Origin: Burkholderia sp. HI2500
GTDB taxonomy: Bacteria; Pseudomonadota; Gammaproteobacteria; Burkholderiales; Burkholderiaceae
DNA: 64,000 bases
Assembly: GCF_002223055.1 (NCBI RefSeq)
Contig: NZ_NKFL01000007.1
Span: 992,001 to 1,056,000, forward strand
Direction of reading: 5' to 3'
Within the stretch, counting starts at the first letter, position 1. Each line of letters starts with the position of its first letter. The notes under the pieces are model-generated. The model was not told the DNA's origin and searched no databases. It saw only the letters and a list, made by a program, of their open reading frames with translations. Below are positions 3,031-55,498 of the stretch, piece by piece. The translations under genes were made by a program, and so were the position numbers.

Positions 3031-4316
3031 CGTGCGCGGCCCTCCGCGATCCCGGCAGCGCCGAGCATCGCGTGCAGCAACACGTTGCAGCCGGCCTCCA
3101 GATGCGCGGGATCGGCCTCCTCGATCTCGTTGTGGCTGATCCCGTCTTTGCACGGCACGAAGATCATCGCGGTCGGCGCCACGCGCGCGAGATACACGGC
3201 GTCGTGGCCCGCCCCGCTGATCACGTTCATCGACGACAGCCCGAGCGCACGCGCGCCCGCACGCACCTGCTCGACCAGCGTCGCGTCGAACGGCTGCGGC
3301 GGGAAGTACACGACCTGCTCGACGTCGATTGGCATGCCGGCCGCTGCGCCCAGGTCGGCGCACGCCGCACGCAGCTCGGCATCCATCGTCGCAAGCGTCG
3401 CATCGTCGGCTGCGCGCAGGTCGACGGTCAGCGTCACGCGGCCCGGAATCACGTTGCGTGAGTTCGGATGCACGTCGACCCAGCCGACCGTGCCGCGCCC
3501 ATGCGGCGGATGCGCGCACGCGATGTCGTTCACCTTGCGCACCAGATCGGACGCGACGAGCAGCGCGTCACGCCGCAGCGCCATCGGCGTCGGGCCCGCG
3601 TGCGCCTCCATGCCGTGCACGGTCACGTCATACCAGCGCTGCCCGAGCGCACCCTCGACCACGCCGATCGTCGTGTCGTGCGCCTCCAGCACCGGGCCCT
3701 GCTCGATATGCGCTTCGAAATACGCGCCGACCGGATGCGCGCCGCGCCCGTCGTTCGCATCGCCCGCATAGCCGATCGCGGCCAGCGCGTCGCGCACCGA
3801 CACGCCGTCGCGGTCGCATTGAGCGAGCGCATGGTCGAGCGTGAACGCGCCCGCGAACACGCCGGAACCCATCATCACGGGCACGAAGCGCGACCCTTCC
3901 TCGTTGGTCCACACCGCGACCTCGAGCGGCGCCCGCGTGCGCACGCCCGCATCGTCAAGCGTGCGCAGCACTTCGAGGCCCGCGAGCACGCCGTAGTTGC
4001 CGTCGAACTTGCCGCCGGTCGGCTGCGTGTCGATATGGCTGCCCGTCGTCACGGGCGGCAGGTCGTCGCGTTCGCCCGCGCGCCGCGCGAAGATGTTGCC
4101 GATCGCGTCGACGCGCACCGTGCAGCCGATTTCCTTCGCCCACGCGGCGAACAGGTCGCGCGCCTCGCGATCGAGTTCGGTGAGCGCGAGGCGGCACACG
4201 CCCCCTTTGTCGGTCGCGCCGATCCGCGCGAGACGCATCAGGCTGTCCCACAGCCGCGCGCCGTCGACGCGCAAGCCGGACGCCGCGACGCCCGGTGTCG
4301 AATCCTGAACTTGCAT
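3027..4316 (-). CDS. Zn-dependent M20 amidohydrolase (allantoate amidohydrolase / N-carbamoyl-L-amino-acid hydrolase family)
   Basis: The 429-residue protein is full length for the AllC/HyuC/beta-ureidopropionase subgroup of M20 peptidases. It carries the metal-binding landmarks GSHIDTQP and the acidic WTNEEGSRF block, the substrate-domain AHAGPTPM motif and a late SGAGHDA motif. Members hydrolyse N-carbamoyl amino acids or allantoate, releasing ammonia and carbon dioxide. The start chosen has GAGGAA about 8 bases upstream; a longer in-frame ATG lies further 5' without support. It sits between the Liv importer and the M81 gene with coupled translation, so the imported substrate is probably an N-carbamoyl or ureido compound. 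The exact substrate cannot be assigned from sequence. Confidence 0.85.
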   Translation of the reverse strand: MQVQDSTPGVAASGLRVDGARLWDSLMRLARIGATDKGGVCRLALTELDREARDLFAAWAKEIGCTVRVDAIGNIFARRAGERDDLPPVTTGSHIDTQPTGGKFDGNYGVLAGLEVLRTLDDAGVRTRAPLEVAVWTNEEGSRFVPVMMGSGVFAGAFTLDHALAQCDRDGVSVRDALAAIGYAGDANDGRGAHPVGAYFEAHIEQGPVLEAHDTTIGVVEGALGQRWYDVTVHGMEAHAGPTPMALRRDALLVASDLVRKVNDIACAHPPHGRGTVGWVDVHPNSRNVIPGRVTLTVDLRAADDATLATMDAELRAACADLGAAAGMPIDVEQVVYFPPQPFDATLVEQVRAGARALGLSSMNVISGAGHDAVYLARVAPTAMIFVPCKDGISHNEIEEADPAHLEAGCNVLLHAMLGAAGIAEGRAR

Positions 4317-5816: not shown

Positions 5817-6856
5817 TGCTGCTCCCCGGTCGTCGTCGCCGTCCGTGCGCCGCGCCGCAGCGACGCCGCGACGCGTTCACCCAATCCCCACAACCCGCGC
5901 TGCATGAACAGGCTGACCGCGATCAGCACGAGGCCGAGCAGCAGCAGCCAGCGCGGCCACAGCGTCGACAGCCAGTCCGCGAACAGCACATAGAACGCCG
6001 CGCCGAGCACCGACGCGAACAGGTTGCCCGTGCCGCCGATCACCGTCATCACGAGGATCATCTCGCTCGTGTGATAGTCGATGTTCGACAGCGGCGCGAT
6101 GCCCGTCATCAACGCGTGCAGCGCACCGGCGAAACCCGTGACCGCACCCGACAGCACGAACGCCGCGAGCTTGAAGCGCTTCACGTCGTAGCCGGCCGCC
6201 GCCGCGCGCGCCTCGTTGTCGCGGATCGCGAGCAGCGTACGGCCGAACACGGAGCGAGACACGCGCAACAACAGCCAGAACACCGCGACGAACAGCACCG
6301 CGACGAAGCCGTAGTAGCGCCACGGTGAATCGAGCGAGACGAGCGGATGCCCGAACAGGGACAGCGCGGGGCGCGGGATGTCGAGCAGCCCGTTGTCGCC
6401 ACCCGTGAGGTCCGGCGTCGTATAGGCGAGAAAGTAGAACAGCTGCCCGAACGCGAGCGTCAGCATCACGAAATAAGTGCCGCGCTGCCGGATCGAGAAC
6501 CAGCCGACGAGCGCGGCCGCGACGGCACCGAGCACGGTGGCGGCCACCAGCGCGGCAGTCACCGATGCGACGCCGTGCGTCAGCACCAGCCCCGCCGCGT
6601 AGCTGCCGAGCCCGAAGAAGATGCCCTGCCCGAACGACAGCAGCCCCGTGTAGCCGAGCAGCAGGTTGCAGCCGAGCGCGGCGAGCGCGAACACCAGCAC
6701 CTCGGTCGCGAGCGAGCCCGAGCTCAGCGCAACCGGCAGCGCGCACACGACGGCCACCGCGAGCCAGCCTTCCGGCCGCTGCCATGCGCCGCGCCACGGC
6801 CGCGGGCGTGACGAGGCCGCCGTCCCGGGCGGCAGCGGTTTCGACGATTCGATCAT
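5813..6856 (-). CDS. livM: Branched-chain-amino-acid-type ABC importer, permease LivM
   Basis: A 347-residue inner-membrane permease with about nine hydrophobic segments and LivM landmarks: NLLLGYTGLLSFGQGIFFG, TYFVMLTLAFGQL, GGDNGL and the cytoplasmic loop GRTLLAIRDNEARAAAAGYD, which contacts the ATPases. An open frame runs several hundred residues further 5', but the ATG used here overlaps the livH stop (ATGA), the arrangement seen at the other joints of the operon. It forms the channel with LivH. Confidence 0.92.
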   Translation of the reverse strand: MIESSKPLPPGTAASSRPRPWRGAWQRPEGWLAVAVVCALPVALSSGSLATEVLVFALAALGCNLLLGYTGLLSFGQGIFFGLGSYAAGLVLTHGVASVTAALVAATVLGAVAAALVGWFSIRQRGTYFVMLTLAFGQLFYFLAYTTPDLTGGDNGLLDIPRPALSLFGHPLVSLDSPWRYYGFVAVLFVAVFWLLLRVSRSVFGRTLLAIRDNEARAAAAGYDVKRFKLAAFVLSGAVTGFAGALHALMTGIAPLSNIDYHTSEMILVMTVIGGTGNLFASVLGAAFYVLFADWLSTLWPRWLLLLGLVLIAVSLFMQRGLWGLGERVAASLRRGARTATTTGEQQ

Positions 6857-53310: not shown

Positions 53311-54660
53311 TTACAGGCCGATGTCGCCGGCGTCCCATGCGATCCGGTCGAACAGCGCGCGCAGCTTCGCGCCGCGCGCCGCGTTCAGCGCGGCCGCATG
53401 CGCGACGCGCCCGGCGAGATGCGCGCGGAAATCCGGATGCGCATCGCGATTCTGCGATGCCGGCCCGCTGCGGATGCAGTTGGTCAGGATGGCCTTCAGG
53501 AGATCGAACGCATCGCGCGCCAGGTTCGGATGACGATTGACGACCACGCCGGCCAGTTGCTGCCGCGTGCCGCGCCGCATCACGCGCGTCTTGCGCAGTT
53601 GCAGCGCAAAGCCTTCCTCGAGCGCGATCGCGGCGACCCGGATCTGCAGCCGTTCGACGTCGCGCGCCAGCGTGCCGCCGCCGGAGAAGGCGAGATCGTC
53701 GGCATAGCGCGTGTAGGTTGCACCGAGCGAACGCGCGAGCGCGGCGAGCCGCATGTCGAACCGGAACGCGCTCAGGTTCGCCAGCGCCGGCGACGTCGGC
53801 GCGCCCTGCGGCAGATGCCGCTCTCGATAACGCTGGCGGCCGATCCAGTCGAACCGGTCGCGCAGGTCCGGCGCGAGCAGCCGTGCGGACGGCACGCGGT
53901 TGGTGCACAGCCCGGTGAGCATGCGCGCGACTTCGACCGGGTACCCGAGCGTGACGAACAGCGCGTGCACGCGGGCGGCGCGTATCGATACGAAGAAATC
54001 CGCGAGATCGAAACGGACGACGACGTCGCGATCCGCATGGGGCGCCGCGAACGACACGATCCCGTGCCCCTTGCGAAAGCCGTGTACCGCACCGTGCGGC
54101 GCGATGCGATCGAGCAGCCCGTGCAGGATGCGGCGCTGCGCTTCGCGCAGCCGGCCTTTCGGGATTTCGACGAGGCGGCTGCCGCCGCTGCGCTTGTCGT
54201 GCGCCACGTACGTGTAGTGATGCAACGGCGTGGCGCTGCTGCGCGCGTCGACGCGCCATTGGTCGGACAGCCAGTCGAGCGCCGGCGCGCTCACGCCGAG
54301 CCAGCCGGCCAGATCGCCGGGCGTCGCCCATTGCGGCACGTCGCAGCCGGCGAGCGGCGCCGGCAAGGGCCGCTGGACCAGCGGGCGCCGTACGACGCGA
54401 ATCGCGACGGGCCGATCGCTGCCGTACCACGCGCGCACGAAAGCCGGCGCATCGGCGAGGTCAGCCGCAAGCGTATCGATGTCGATGTCGGCCCAGCGCG
54501 CACCGAAGCGTGCGAGCGCGGCATCCGCGACTTCGTGAGTCCACGGTGGCGCGCCGCCGAGCACGGCCGCCATCCGGGACAGGACGCCGGGGCGTTCAGG
54601 TTCGCCGGCCAGCATCGCTTCCGCAATCGTGCGGGTGGTGTCGAACAGGGAGCCGGACAT
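53311..54660 (-). CDS. Retron-type reverse transcriptase
   Basis: A 449-residue RNA-directed DNA polymerase. Residues 1-~145 are an extra N-terminal region of no recognised family; the polymerase follows. Motifs: HDKRSGGSRLVEIPKGRLREAQRRIL (RT1-2, 154-179), HGFRKGHGIVSFAAPH (193-208, position of the retron NAxxH motif, here F-A-A-P-H), VVRFDLADFF (RT3, first catalytic Asp near 218), LPQGAPTSPALANL (RT4, 283-296), TRYADDLAFSG (RT5, catalytic YADD 319-322) and QQLAGVVVNRHPNL (367-380, position of the retron VTG motif). The layout with a long N-terminal region resembles myxobacterial retron RTs. The gene starts 12 bases after a predicted msr-msd RNA on the same strand. Together they make multicopy single-stranded DNA. 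A longer in-frame extension overlaps the RNA and is rejected. Confidence 0.88.
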   Translation of the reverse strand: MSGSLFDTTRTIAEAMLAGEPERPGVLSRMAAVLGGAPPWTHEVADAALARFGARWADIDIDTLAADLADAPAFVRAWYGSDRPVAIRVVRRPLVQRPLPAPLAGCDVPQWATPGDLAGWLGVSAPALDWLSDQWRVDARSSATPLHHYTYVAHDKRSGGSRLVEIPKGRLREAQRRILHGLLDRIAPHGAVHGFRKGHGIVSFAAPHADRDVVVRFDLADFFVSIRAARVHALFVTLGYPVEVARMLTGLCTNRVPSARLLAPDLRDRFDWIGRQRYRERHLPQGAPTSPALANLSAFRFDMRLAALARSLGATYTRYADDLAFSGGGTLARDVERLQIRVAAIALEEGFALQLRKTRVMRRGTRQQLAGVVVNRHPNLARDAFDLLKAILTNCIRSGPASQNRDAHPDFRAHLAGRVAHAAALNAARGAKLRALFDRIAWDAGDIGL

Positions 54661-54672
54661 GGGAATCGATAG

Positions 54673-54838
54673 GCGGGACGATGAGCCAACGTGACTGGTG
54701 CTGCGAGGAGTCGCGTTGCGCAACGCGCAACCGTGCTCCTTGCGACGCATCGGGGTGTCAATCTCATCCACGGGGTAGCCCCGTAGTCCTGGAACATCGG
54801 CTGCCTGTTCCGGGCGTGTGCTTGACCCACCGGCCCGC
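54673..54838 (-). ncRNA. Predicted retron msr-msd RNA
   Basis: Read on the minus strand 5' to 3'. The a1 segment GCGGGCCGGTGGGTCAA (54838-54822) pairs with the a2 segment TTGGCTCATCGTCCCGC (54689-54673): 16 of 17 positions pair, three as G-U, with one C-U mismatch. Directly after a1 comes AGC context with G54821, the expected branching guanosine. The msr holds two hairpins: GGAACA/TGTTCC with a 9-nt loop (54811-54791) and ACGGGG-CTA-CCCCGT (54784-54770). The msd region (about 54765-54690) forms a long stem: TGAC/GTCA outer pairs, AGGAG/CTCCT (54740-54736 with 54710-54706) and a 16-nt perfect palindrome CGCGTTGCGCAACGCG (54727-54712). This is seen by eye, not computed. Confidence 0.72.
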
Positions 54839-54845
54839 GATGCGA

Positions 54846-54874
54846 CTTTAATGGCCGCGAACGCGGCGTGTCAA
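54846..54874 (-). promoter_or_regulatory. Sigma70-like promoter of the retron RNA
   Basis: On the minus strand a perfect -35 box TTGACA (54874-54869) is followed after 17 bp by TTAAAG (or after 18 by TAAAGT). The predicted start falls at about 54838, exactly where a1 begins. Its position only 50 bases past the upstream gene suggests that the retron is transcribed independently. Confidence 0.6.
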
Positions 54875-54925
54875 ACCGGGTGGCGATCCGGCGCCACGGC
54901 GACGCGCCGGATCGCGACGCGCAAC

Positions 54926-55498
54926 CTACGCGTGCCGGGAAAACAGCTCGCGGTACGCGATCGGCGGGACGCCGACGCCGGCCATGTTGTTCAGCATCGT
55001 GGCCCAGGTCGCGTTGTCGACGCTGACCGGAAACGACCGCACGCGGTTGGCGAGCAGCCAGAAGGTGCGCGTCATGCCGTTGCTCATCGCGACTTCGTAC
55101 CCGCTTCCCTCGAGCCAGTGGCCGACCGGCGGCAGCGCCACCGGTTCGAGGCGGCCGGCCCGGAACGCGGCGGCGGCCGACGCGTATTTGCTGTCGAGCG
55201 GCATGACGCGGCGCGGCACGCAATCCTGCGAATTCAGTTGCGGAAACGCCGGGCTCGTGCCGAGCCACAGGCCGTAGAACTTTTGAGCGTCGAGATGCAC
55301 GACGAAGCGCTCCGTTTCGGCGGGCGTTGCCGCCATGTAGCAGTCCGCCTGGCCGGGAACGACCACGCGCCACGTCGCGCGCTGCGCGCTCAGGTCGACC
55401 AGCTCGCTCGGCAGCGGCCGCGGCTGGATGGGAGACGGTCGTCCCGCTTCGCGCAGGTCGCGCGCGCGATCGAGTCCGATACGAAGACGTGTCAGCAT
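54926..55498 (-). CDS. Hypothetical protein, probable plasmid fertility-inhibition factor family
   Basis: A 190-residue protein without signal peptide or membrane segment. Features: TWRVVVPGQADCYMAATPAETERFVVHLD in the N-terminal half, FYGLWLGTSPAFPQ, MPLDSKYASAAAAFRAG and the C-terminal block NGMTRTFWLLANRVRSFPV. This arrangement recalls the FiwA/plasmid fertility-inhibition family, which blocks conjugative transfer of other plasmids. The match is from memory of the family style and is moderately sure. GAGGG precedes the start. It lies directly upstream of the retron on the same strand. Confidence 0.55.
   Translation of the reverse strand: MLTRLRIGLDRARDLREAGRPSPIQPRPLPSELVDLSAQRATWRVVVPGQADCYMAATPAETERFVVHLDAQKFYGLWLGTSPAFPQLNSQDCVPRRVMPLDSKYASAAAAFRAGRLEPVALPPVGHWLEGSGYEVAMSNGMTRTFWLLANRVRSFPVSVDNATWATMLNNMAGVGVPPIAYRELFSRHA

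Follow-up and report, generated by a model that had tools for sequence, protein, structure and literature searches.

The locus studied here raises the question of whether a retron can consist of nothing more than an RNA and a reverse transcriptase (RT). Retrons are described as tripartite systems in the available portion of recent work (PMC13405049), and an earlier note on this DNA pointed to a retron with a recognisable RNA and no neighbouring effector of a familiar kind. The cassette lies in a 64,000-nucleotide window of the Burkholderia sp. HI2500 genome (the whole stretch of DNA that was analysed), where positions 54874-53311 of the minus strand hold a promoter followed by an RNA and then the gene for an RT. 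We consider it likely that these form a genuine, effector-less retron of two parts, an msr-msd RNA and a single 449-aa RT, belonging to a distinct clade.

The msr-msd RNA and its reverse transcriptase

The RNA lies upstream of the RT gene, spans roughly 165 nt (54838-54673, minus strand) and folds into two hairpins and a long third stem enclosed by pairing of its ends. Its ends are joined by a 17-nt a1 arm (54838-54822) and a 17-nt a2 arm (54689-54673), which pair over 17 positions with a sole mismatch, C54833 opposite U54678. Directly after a1 stands the predicted branching (priming) guanosine, G54821, in an AAGC context, followed by two msr hairpins of eight pairs each, at 54813-54788 and 54786-54768. 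The second of these, CUACGGGG-CUA-CCCCGUGG, is the most conserved element of the RNA and is probably where the RT anchors. The msd stem-loop, or template, follows at 54743-54703, with an outer helix (54743-54736 paired with 54710-54703) and a tip helix (54731-54725 paired with 54721-54715). Upstream of the RNA, a sigma70-like promoter reads TTGACA (54874-54869), a 17-nt spacer and TTAAAG (54851-54846); downstream, the RT gene (54660-53311, stop included; YADD at 53706-53695) opens with an ATG exactly 12 nt after a2. An alternative GTG start at 54771 would give an RT of 486 aa, and fits less well because that frame would cross the RNA.

The earlier note had traced the RNA pairing by hand, and the promoter, the one-mismatch duplex, the guanosine in its AGC context, the two hairpins, the long msd stem and the RT start 12 bases past a2 all stand as it described them. 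Its perfect 16-nt palindrome at the msd tip fares differently: it is present here (54712-54727), but it is not a family trait, as a palindrome of at least 16 nt occurs in only 3 of 54 aligned msd regions, the window's included. We therefore reject it as a defining feature; what is conserved at the tip is a 7-bp helix, which in the window closes a 3-nt loop.

Folding alone would not settle that this RNA is real, because its energy is only moderately lower than that of shuffled sequences (z -1.81, with 8 of 200 shuffles folding as well), and we discarded folding energy by itself as proof. Covariation, the check that the earlier note had proposed, is decisive. Besides the window, we examined 57 non-duplicate loci from Burkholderia and its family, of which 53 have an alignable RNA beside the RT and, together with the window, make up an alignment of 54 RNAs; a covariance model found a fifty-fourth such locus, L132. 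At L121 the RT match starts at residue 103 at a contig end and the RNA lies on another contig of the same genome, and the RTs of L123 and L125 are truncated or deleted, with no RNA at either locus. Across the 54-RNA alignment, 96.1% of cells are paired, 17 of 47 pairs have changed on both sides, and double-change cells number 87 against 19.7 for shuffles, none of the 500 reaching 87; shifting one arm lowers pairing to at most 43.5%. Such changes on both sides are found in every helix: in the a1/a2 duplex (5 of 17 pairs, with 95.0% of cells paired), in both msr hairpins (4 of 8 pairs and 90.2% of cells in hairpin 1; 100% of cells paired in hairpin 2), in the outer msd helix (4 of 7 pairs) and in the msd tip (2 of 7). 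The C-A-A-G-C at the branch site is invariant in all 54 RNAs, and TTGACA is kept no more than 60 nt upstream of 53 of them, the window's counted.

The same architecture extends to 63 RNAs from outside Burkholderiaceae, in which 43 of 46 pairs have changed on both sides (707 cells against 189.7), including all seven pairs of the outer msd helix and all six scored at the tip. Since the distant RNAs were aligned by fitting them to the structure in the model, we paired each a1 with every a2 as an independent control: a1:a2 duplexes from the same RNA average -34.5 kcal/mol against -21.5 for foreign partners, and an arm's own partner is the best in 39 of the 63 RNAs and among the top three in 51. 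In 62 of the 63, ten or more pairs join the RNA ends in the minimum-energy fold. Hairpin 2 is again almost fully paired (99.0% of cells) and hairpin 1 is the least well paired helix (83.8%), while a crude scan of the branch context finds AGC in 37 RNAs, another AGN in 24 and neither in 2. Rfam 15 has no match at gathering score anywhere in the window, and a lenient Rfam search of 54600-54950 returns two matches, both far under gathering score.

The RT itself carries the YADD and other RT motifs that the earlier note had read (QGAPTSP and TRYADDLAFSG among them) and matches Pfam RVT_1 at 61.4 bits. When the 486-aa frame from 54771 is scanned with PADLOC, the best models are RT_other (478.8 bits) and RT_outgroup (448.8), with RT_XIII third (298.5), and the 25 best matches shown are all retron RT models; six other RTs of the family rank in the same way, with RT_other and then RT_outgroup best. 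All 14 solved structures that match by sequence and the 18 best by fold are retron RTs, and the closest solved fold to the AF2 model (pLDDT 92.7, pTM 0.83) is that of the Ec86 RT (Foldseek E 1.6e-18, TM 0.82 by target). We looked specifically for a placement in a non-retron clade, and the RT both scores and folds as a retron RT. Identity as DRT2 was rejected at 36.0 bits against the NCBIfam Drt2 cut-off of 390, and identity as a group II intron RT at 33.2 bits against a cut-off of 300. The RT gene is under purifying selection, with an overall dN/dS of 0.18-0.33 across nine pairs.

In a tree of 66 RTs over 317 columns, all 27 family RTs form one clade (bipartition support 0.996) and 14 type-XIII-like RTs form another (0.744); the tree supports no one group as nearest to the family. 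We rejected membership of retron type XIII, as RT_XIII trails RT_other by 180 bits and the family clade is separate, and dropped a sister relation of the family to Mx162/type XIII, a grouping that lacks support in the same tree. The retron is placed in a distinct clade without an assigned PADLOC type. Six type-XIII-like RTs (L155, L157, L159, L164, L165 and L166) have open frames of 594-698 aa whose terminal hydrophobic stretches resemble a membrane anchor or effector fused to the RT; RT_XIII is the best PADLOC model for L164. The genome of L177 holds a second, weak RT_other match (30.1 bits, G000:C4:1291400-1291927), which is probably another RT class.

The predicted structure of the RT begins with a five-helix domain at residues 5-79 (54648-54424), whose helices span residues 5-17, 23-34, 39-58, 61-70 and 72-79 in the AF2 model; the domain was also modelled alone. 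It changes at roughly double the rate of the remaining RT, with dN/dS of 0.34-0.60 for residues 2-95 against 0.10-0.31 in two later segments (nine pairs). Judged from sequence, the domain is widely kept in the family: among the 80 loci compared most widely (the best 80 of 575 relatives), the assigned RT length is 425-470 aa in 66 and the tblastn match begins in the first 25 query residues in 55. A natural exception is L132 (6880-7320), whose RT starts at the linker and is without residues 1 to about 91. Since this locus keeps a strong RNA (156.5 bits), the domain can be separated from RNA recognition. Searches by fold with the domain returned no convincing solved relative, and the model shows no visible active site; considered as an RT-fused effector, the five helices have no recognisable function in Pfam or fold searches. 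We propose that the domain may be a built-in partner of the RT. It may instead be only an RNA- or DNA-binding accessory, because it has no clear solved relative or active site and L132 has lost it.

Distribution, genomic site and neighbours

In Burkholderia, the RNA is inherited together with its RT. The RT is matched at E <= 1e-30 in 45 of 65 genomes (own included), and the 65 divide into 43 with RNA and RT, 2 with a truncated RT only and 20 with neither. The RNA model finds one copy in each of the 43, all with an RT, and none in the 20 RT-less genomes (RT at E <= 1e-30, RNA at E <= 0.001, with the stricter Infernal filters); in the two RT-positive, RNA-negative genomes, G047 and G058, the RT is truncated or deleted. 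Sampling more widely, the RT is matched at E <= 1e-40 in 56 of 398 genomes of the family, from 4 of 25 genera, and at E <= 1e-25 in 10 of 369 genomes of the class and 15 of 398 of the phylum, own included in both. Six of 23 class and phylum loci have the RNA at E <= 1e-4 (L152-L154, L161, L162 and L163), L162 and L163 more weakly at 28 bits. The remaining 17 have no RNA model match at E < 0.01, and in none of their RTs does the match to the query begin before residue 99.

The RNA reaches far beyond this phylum. A scan of GTDB species genomes with a wide alignment confirmed 575 relatives, and for the best 80 of these an RNA model built only from Burkholderiaceae RNAs (R1) finds an RNA upstream of the RT in 71 at E <= 2.1e-4. 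This conserved RNA before homologous RTs, together with its presence in 43 of 65 Burkholderia genomes, is what the earlier note's reading predicted. In 70 of the 71 loci the RNA ends no more than 107 nt from the assigned start codon, and 63 lie outside Burkholderiaceae. By record titles they include Pseudomonadota, Planctomycetota, Acidobacteriota, Verrucomicrobiota, Myxococcota, Gemmatimonadota and Actinomycetota, at least seven phyla, labels that may err because many of the records are metagenome bins. R1 gives no confident RNA at L198, L217, L232, L236, L239, L240, L241, L251 and L253; L240 has a similar RNA fold, and the RTs of L198, L236 and L239 lie at or near contig ends. The Myxococcus and Pyxidicoccus genomes that we searched hold both family-type and type-XIII-like RTs.

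Carriage by phages or plasmids was considered and rejected. The RNA matches none of 50,697 phage records, of the 22 phage records that match the RT none reaches 80% query coverage, and only 3 of 98 plasmid records matching the RT do so near full length, all three being Burkholderia records of 0.88-1.26 Mb. Among the best 80 of 81 viral-contig RTs, the top match has 34% identity, rising to 39% in a single short stretch, and all 18 viral RTs placed in the 66-RT tree lie outside the family clade.

The Burkholderia copies also reveal the limits of the element. Beside the same H-NS gene lie 36 of the 45 copies (own included), and 9 are elsewhere. At two of these nine loci, L141 and L151, homology to a 13-kb stretch of the window covers only 53311-54909 and 53325-54905, respectively; the whole mobile cassette (53311-54909, minus strand) thus comprises the promoter, the RNA and the RT and no further gene, and at these two delimited loci the RNA and RT have reached new sites unaccompanied by other genes. 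The upstream homology limit falls at 54878-54883 in L142, L143 and L148. Decayed retrons are found at the H-NS/MFS site in L125 (G058; 6010-6329), as pieces from either side of the RT deletion, and in L270 (G012; 3687-3789), as a short piece of the RT 3' end.

That the RT has no neighbouring effector, as the earlier note had remarked, holds across every set of loci compared: no gene besides the RT is shared across 26 Burkholderiaceae loci, the 80 wide loci or 110 neighbour proteins. The 26 loci have no common protein cluster except the RT and frames overlapping it, and the groups of 7-8 loci that share flanks among Burkholderiaceae belong to one other genus (g20). Across the best 80 of 575 relatives, the largest neighbour cluster spans 7 loci, at scattered positions and on both strands. 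When 110 of 148 picked neighbour proteins were scanned for domains, 105 PADLOC models matched some member, with no Pfam family in more than two proteins and no PADLOC family in more than one; the single RT match, at L204, most likely represents the remaining half of an RT split by a frameshift. PADLOC, Pfam and NCBIfam searches identify no recognisable toxin in the cassette.

Several genes adjoin the retron at particular loci. Directly upstream of it in the window, a chromosomal homologue of plasmid fertility inhibition factor (54926-55498, minus strand; Pfam PFIN, E 2.3e-17) is kept in part of the orthologous Burkholderia loci, and 27 larger Burkholderia loci contain H-NS in 18 cases and PFIN in 8. 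We rejected both as the effector, since neither falls within the cassette as delimited at L141 and L151. L178 adjoins a PDC-M05 candidate defence gene. In L249, L253, L254 and L255, a hydrophobic protein of 239-277 aa is encoded on the same strand about 28-135 nt after the RT; it adjoins a planctomycete subclade of the family and elsewhere is also found apart from the RT.

Proposed mode of action and alternatives

The RNA's architecture, its covariation, its co-inheritance with the RT, the cassette limits and the absence of any neighbour common to the compared loci are observed; the steps proposed here go further. One transcript would supply both RNA and RT. The RT would bind the RNA, probably at hairpin 2, which is near-invariant across phyla, and would prime from the 2'-OH of G54821, copying the msd hairpin leftward from about 54690. 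The predicted product is a branched msDNA with roughly 65-75 nt of DNA, from which host RNase H would remove the msd RNA, as in the general retron biochemistry given in the available portion of PMC6868368. Less certainly, the RT-msDNA particle may be the sensor. Because no effector is linked to the cassette, the response would come either from the RT's own N-terminal helical domain, acting as adaptor or effector, or from a host protein encoded elsewhere, and we entertain each of these tentatively and to the same degree. By analogy, antiphage defence would be the likeliest use, a view toward which we lean slightly. Because the Burkholderia element lies mostly at one site (36 of 45 copies), a housekeeping role would fit as well as defence.

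Such a role is the substance of one alternative, that of a housekeeping or regulatory retron whose msDNA or RNA-RT particle acts in DNA metabolism or regulation. It draws on that syntenic site, on the purifying selection acting on the RT, on the finding that no PADLOC family recurs among the 110 neighbours, and on the myxobacterial retrons, which are likewise N-extended and vertically inherited (in the available portion of PMC6868368). Yet 22 of 65 Burkholderia genomes lack the element or retain it in decayed form, 9 of 45 copies sit at other sites, its distribution across phyla is patchy, as that of defence elements is, and its N-terminal domain evolves fast; on balance we find this account doubtful. 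We are just as doubtful that this is an ordinary tripartite retron that recruits its effector in trans from a gene located elsewhere in the genome. The tripartite description of retrons (PMC13405049, available portion) and a cassette with no recognisable toxin speak for it, but the RNA and RT have relocated by themselves at the two delimited loci and are found among unrelated neighbours in at least seven phyla, so that a fixed partner in trans would have to be a near-universal host protein.

Two further readings have far less to commend them. The element could be selfish, its RNA and RT persisting through rare retrotransposition, and the relocation boundaries near the promoter and the RT stop are what such an element might leave. 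However, each Burkholderia genome with the RNA has one copy (43 of 43), genomes without the RT are also without the RNA, the element has long been retained at one site, and the cassette holds no other gene, which together make this improbable. More improbable still is that the RNA serves the RT gene as a cis-regulatory leader and not as a template for reverse transcription: although its position in the 5' leader, with its end 12 nt short of the ATG, would suit such a role, every part of it fits a retron msr-msd (end-to-end duplex, hairpin pair and long template stem), the G after a1 is invariant in the 54 Burkholderiaceae RNAs, all helices covary, and no Rfam family is matched at threshold.

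The reading that we prefer, a two-part retron without a dedicated effector, has several implications. RNA and RT occur together in at least seven phyla and no shared third gene was found in the family, which therefore offers a direct test of whether a retron needs an effector gene. The family also bears on the question posed by the myxobacterial retrons, namely the role of N-extended, vertically kept retrons. Its RNA is defined well enough for modelling and searching, and compact one-gene retrons of this kind could serve single-stranded DNA production in Burkholderia and other non-model bacteria.

Comparison with known systems

Retron Eco1 (Ec86) shares its RT fold and its msr-msd plan with the window retron. 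In Eco1 the effector is a separate component, as the title of its solved complex 7v9x shows, whereas the window retron has no linked gene and its RT carries an extra N-terminal domain. DRT2 and group II intron RTs have the RT palm in common with the window RT, which falls far under their curated cut-offs. The PADLOC models that best match the window RT and its six scanned relatives are RT_other (PDLC02949) and RT_outgroup (PDLC03740), whose names suggest catch-all sequence models.

Mx162 (Retron-Mxa1) and its relatives, the RT_XIII group, resemble the window retron in their N-extended RT, AGC-type branch context and long vertical inheritance (as described in the available portion of PMC6868368). 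They differ from it in that their match to the window RT starts only at residue 108, and the RNA model finds only weak, gapped matches of 67-69 nt upstream of their RTs (best 20.5 bits, E 0.0018). An Mx162-like RT from a Pyxidicoccus genome (L262) scores 515.4 bits with RT_XIII, against 298.5 for the window frame; judging by the protein's start and length, L262 and L264 are probably Mx162.

A description of this Burkholderia retron was not found in the available portions of the literature searched (including PMC6868368, PMC8934634, PMC12262390, PMC13405049 and PMC12548924), and an earlier mention of the clade is possible. The retron as such is a known kind of element; what is new here is a clade-wide RNA unmatched by Rfam 15, its reach over phyla, and an organization in which the RNA and its RT travel with no linked third component.
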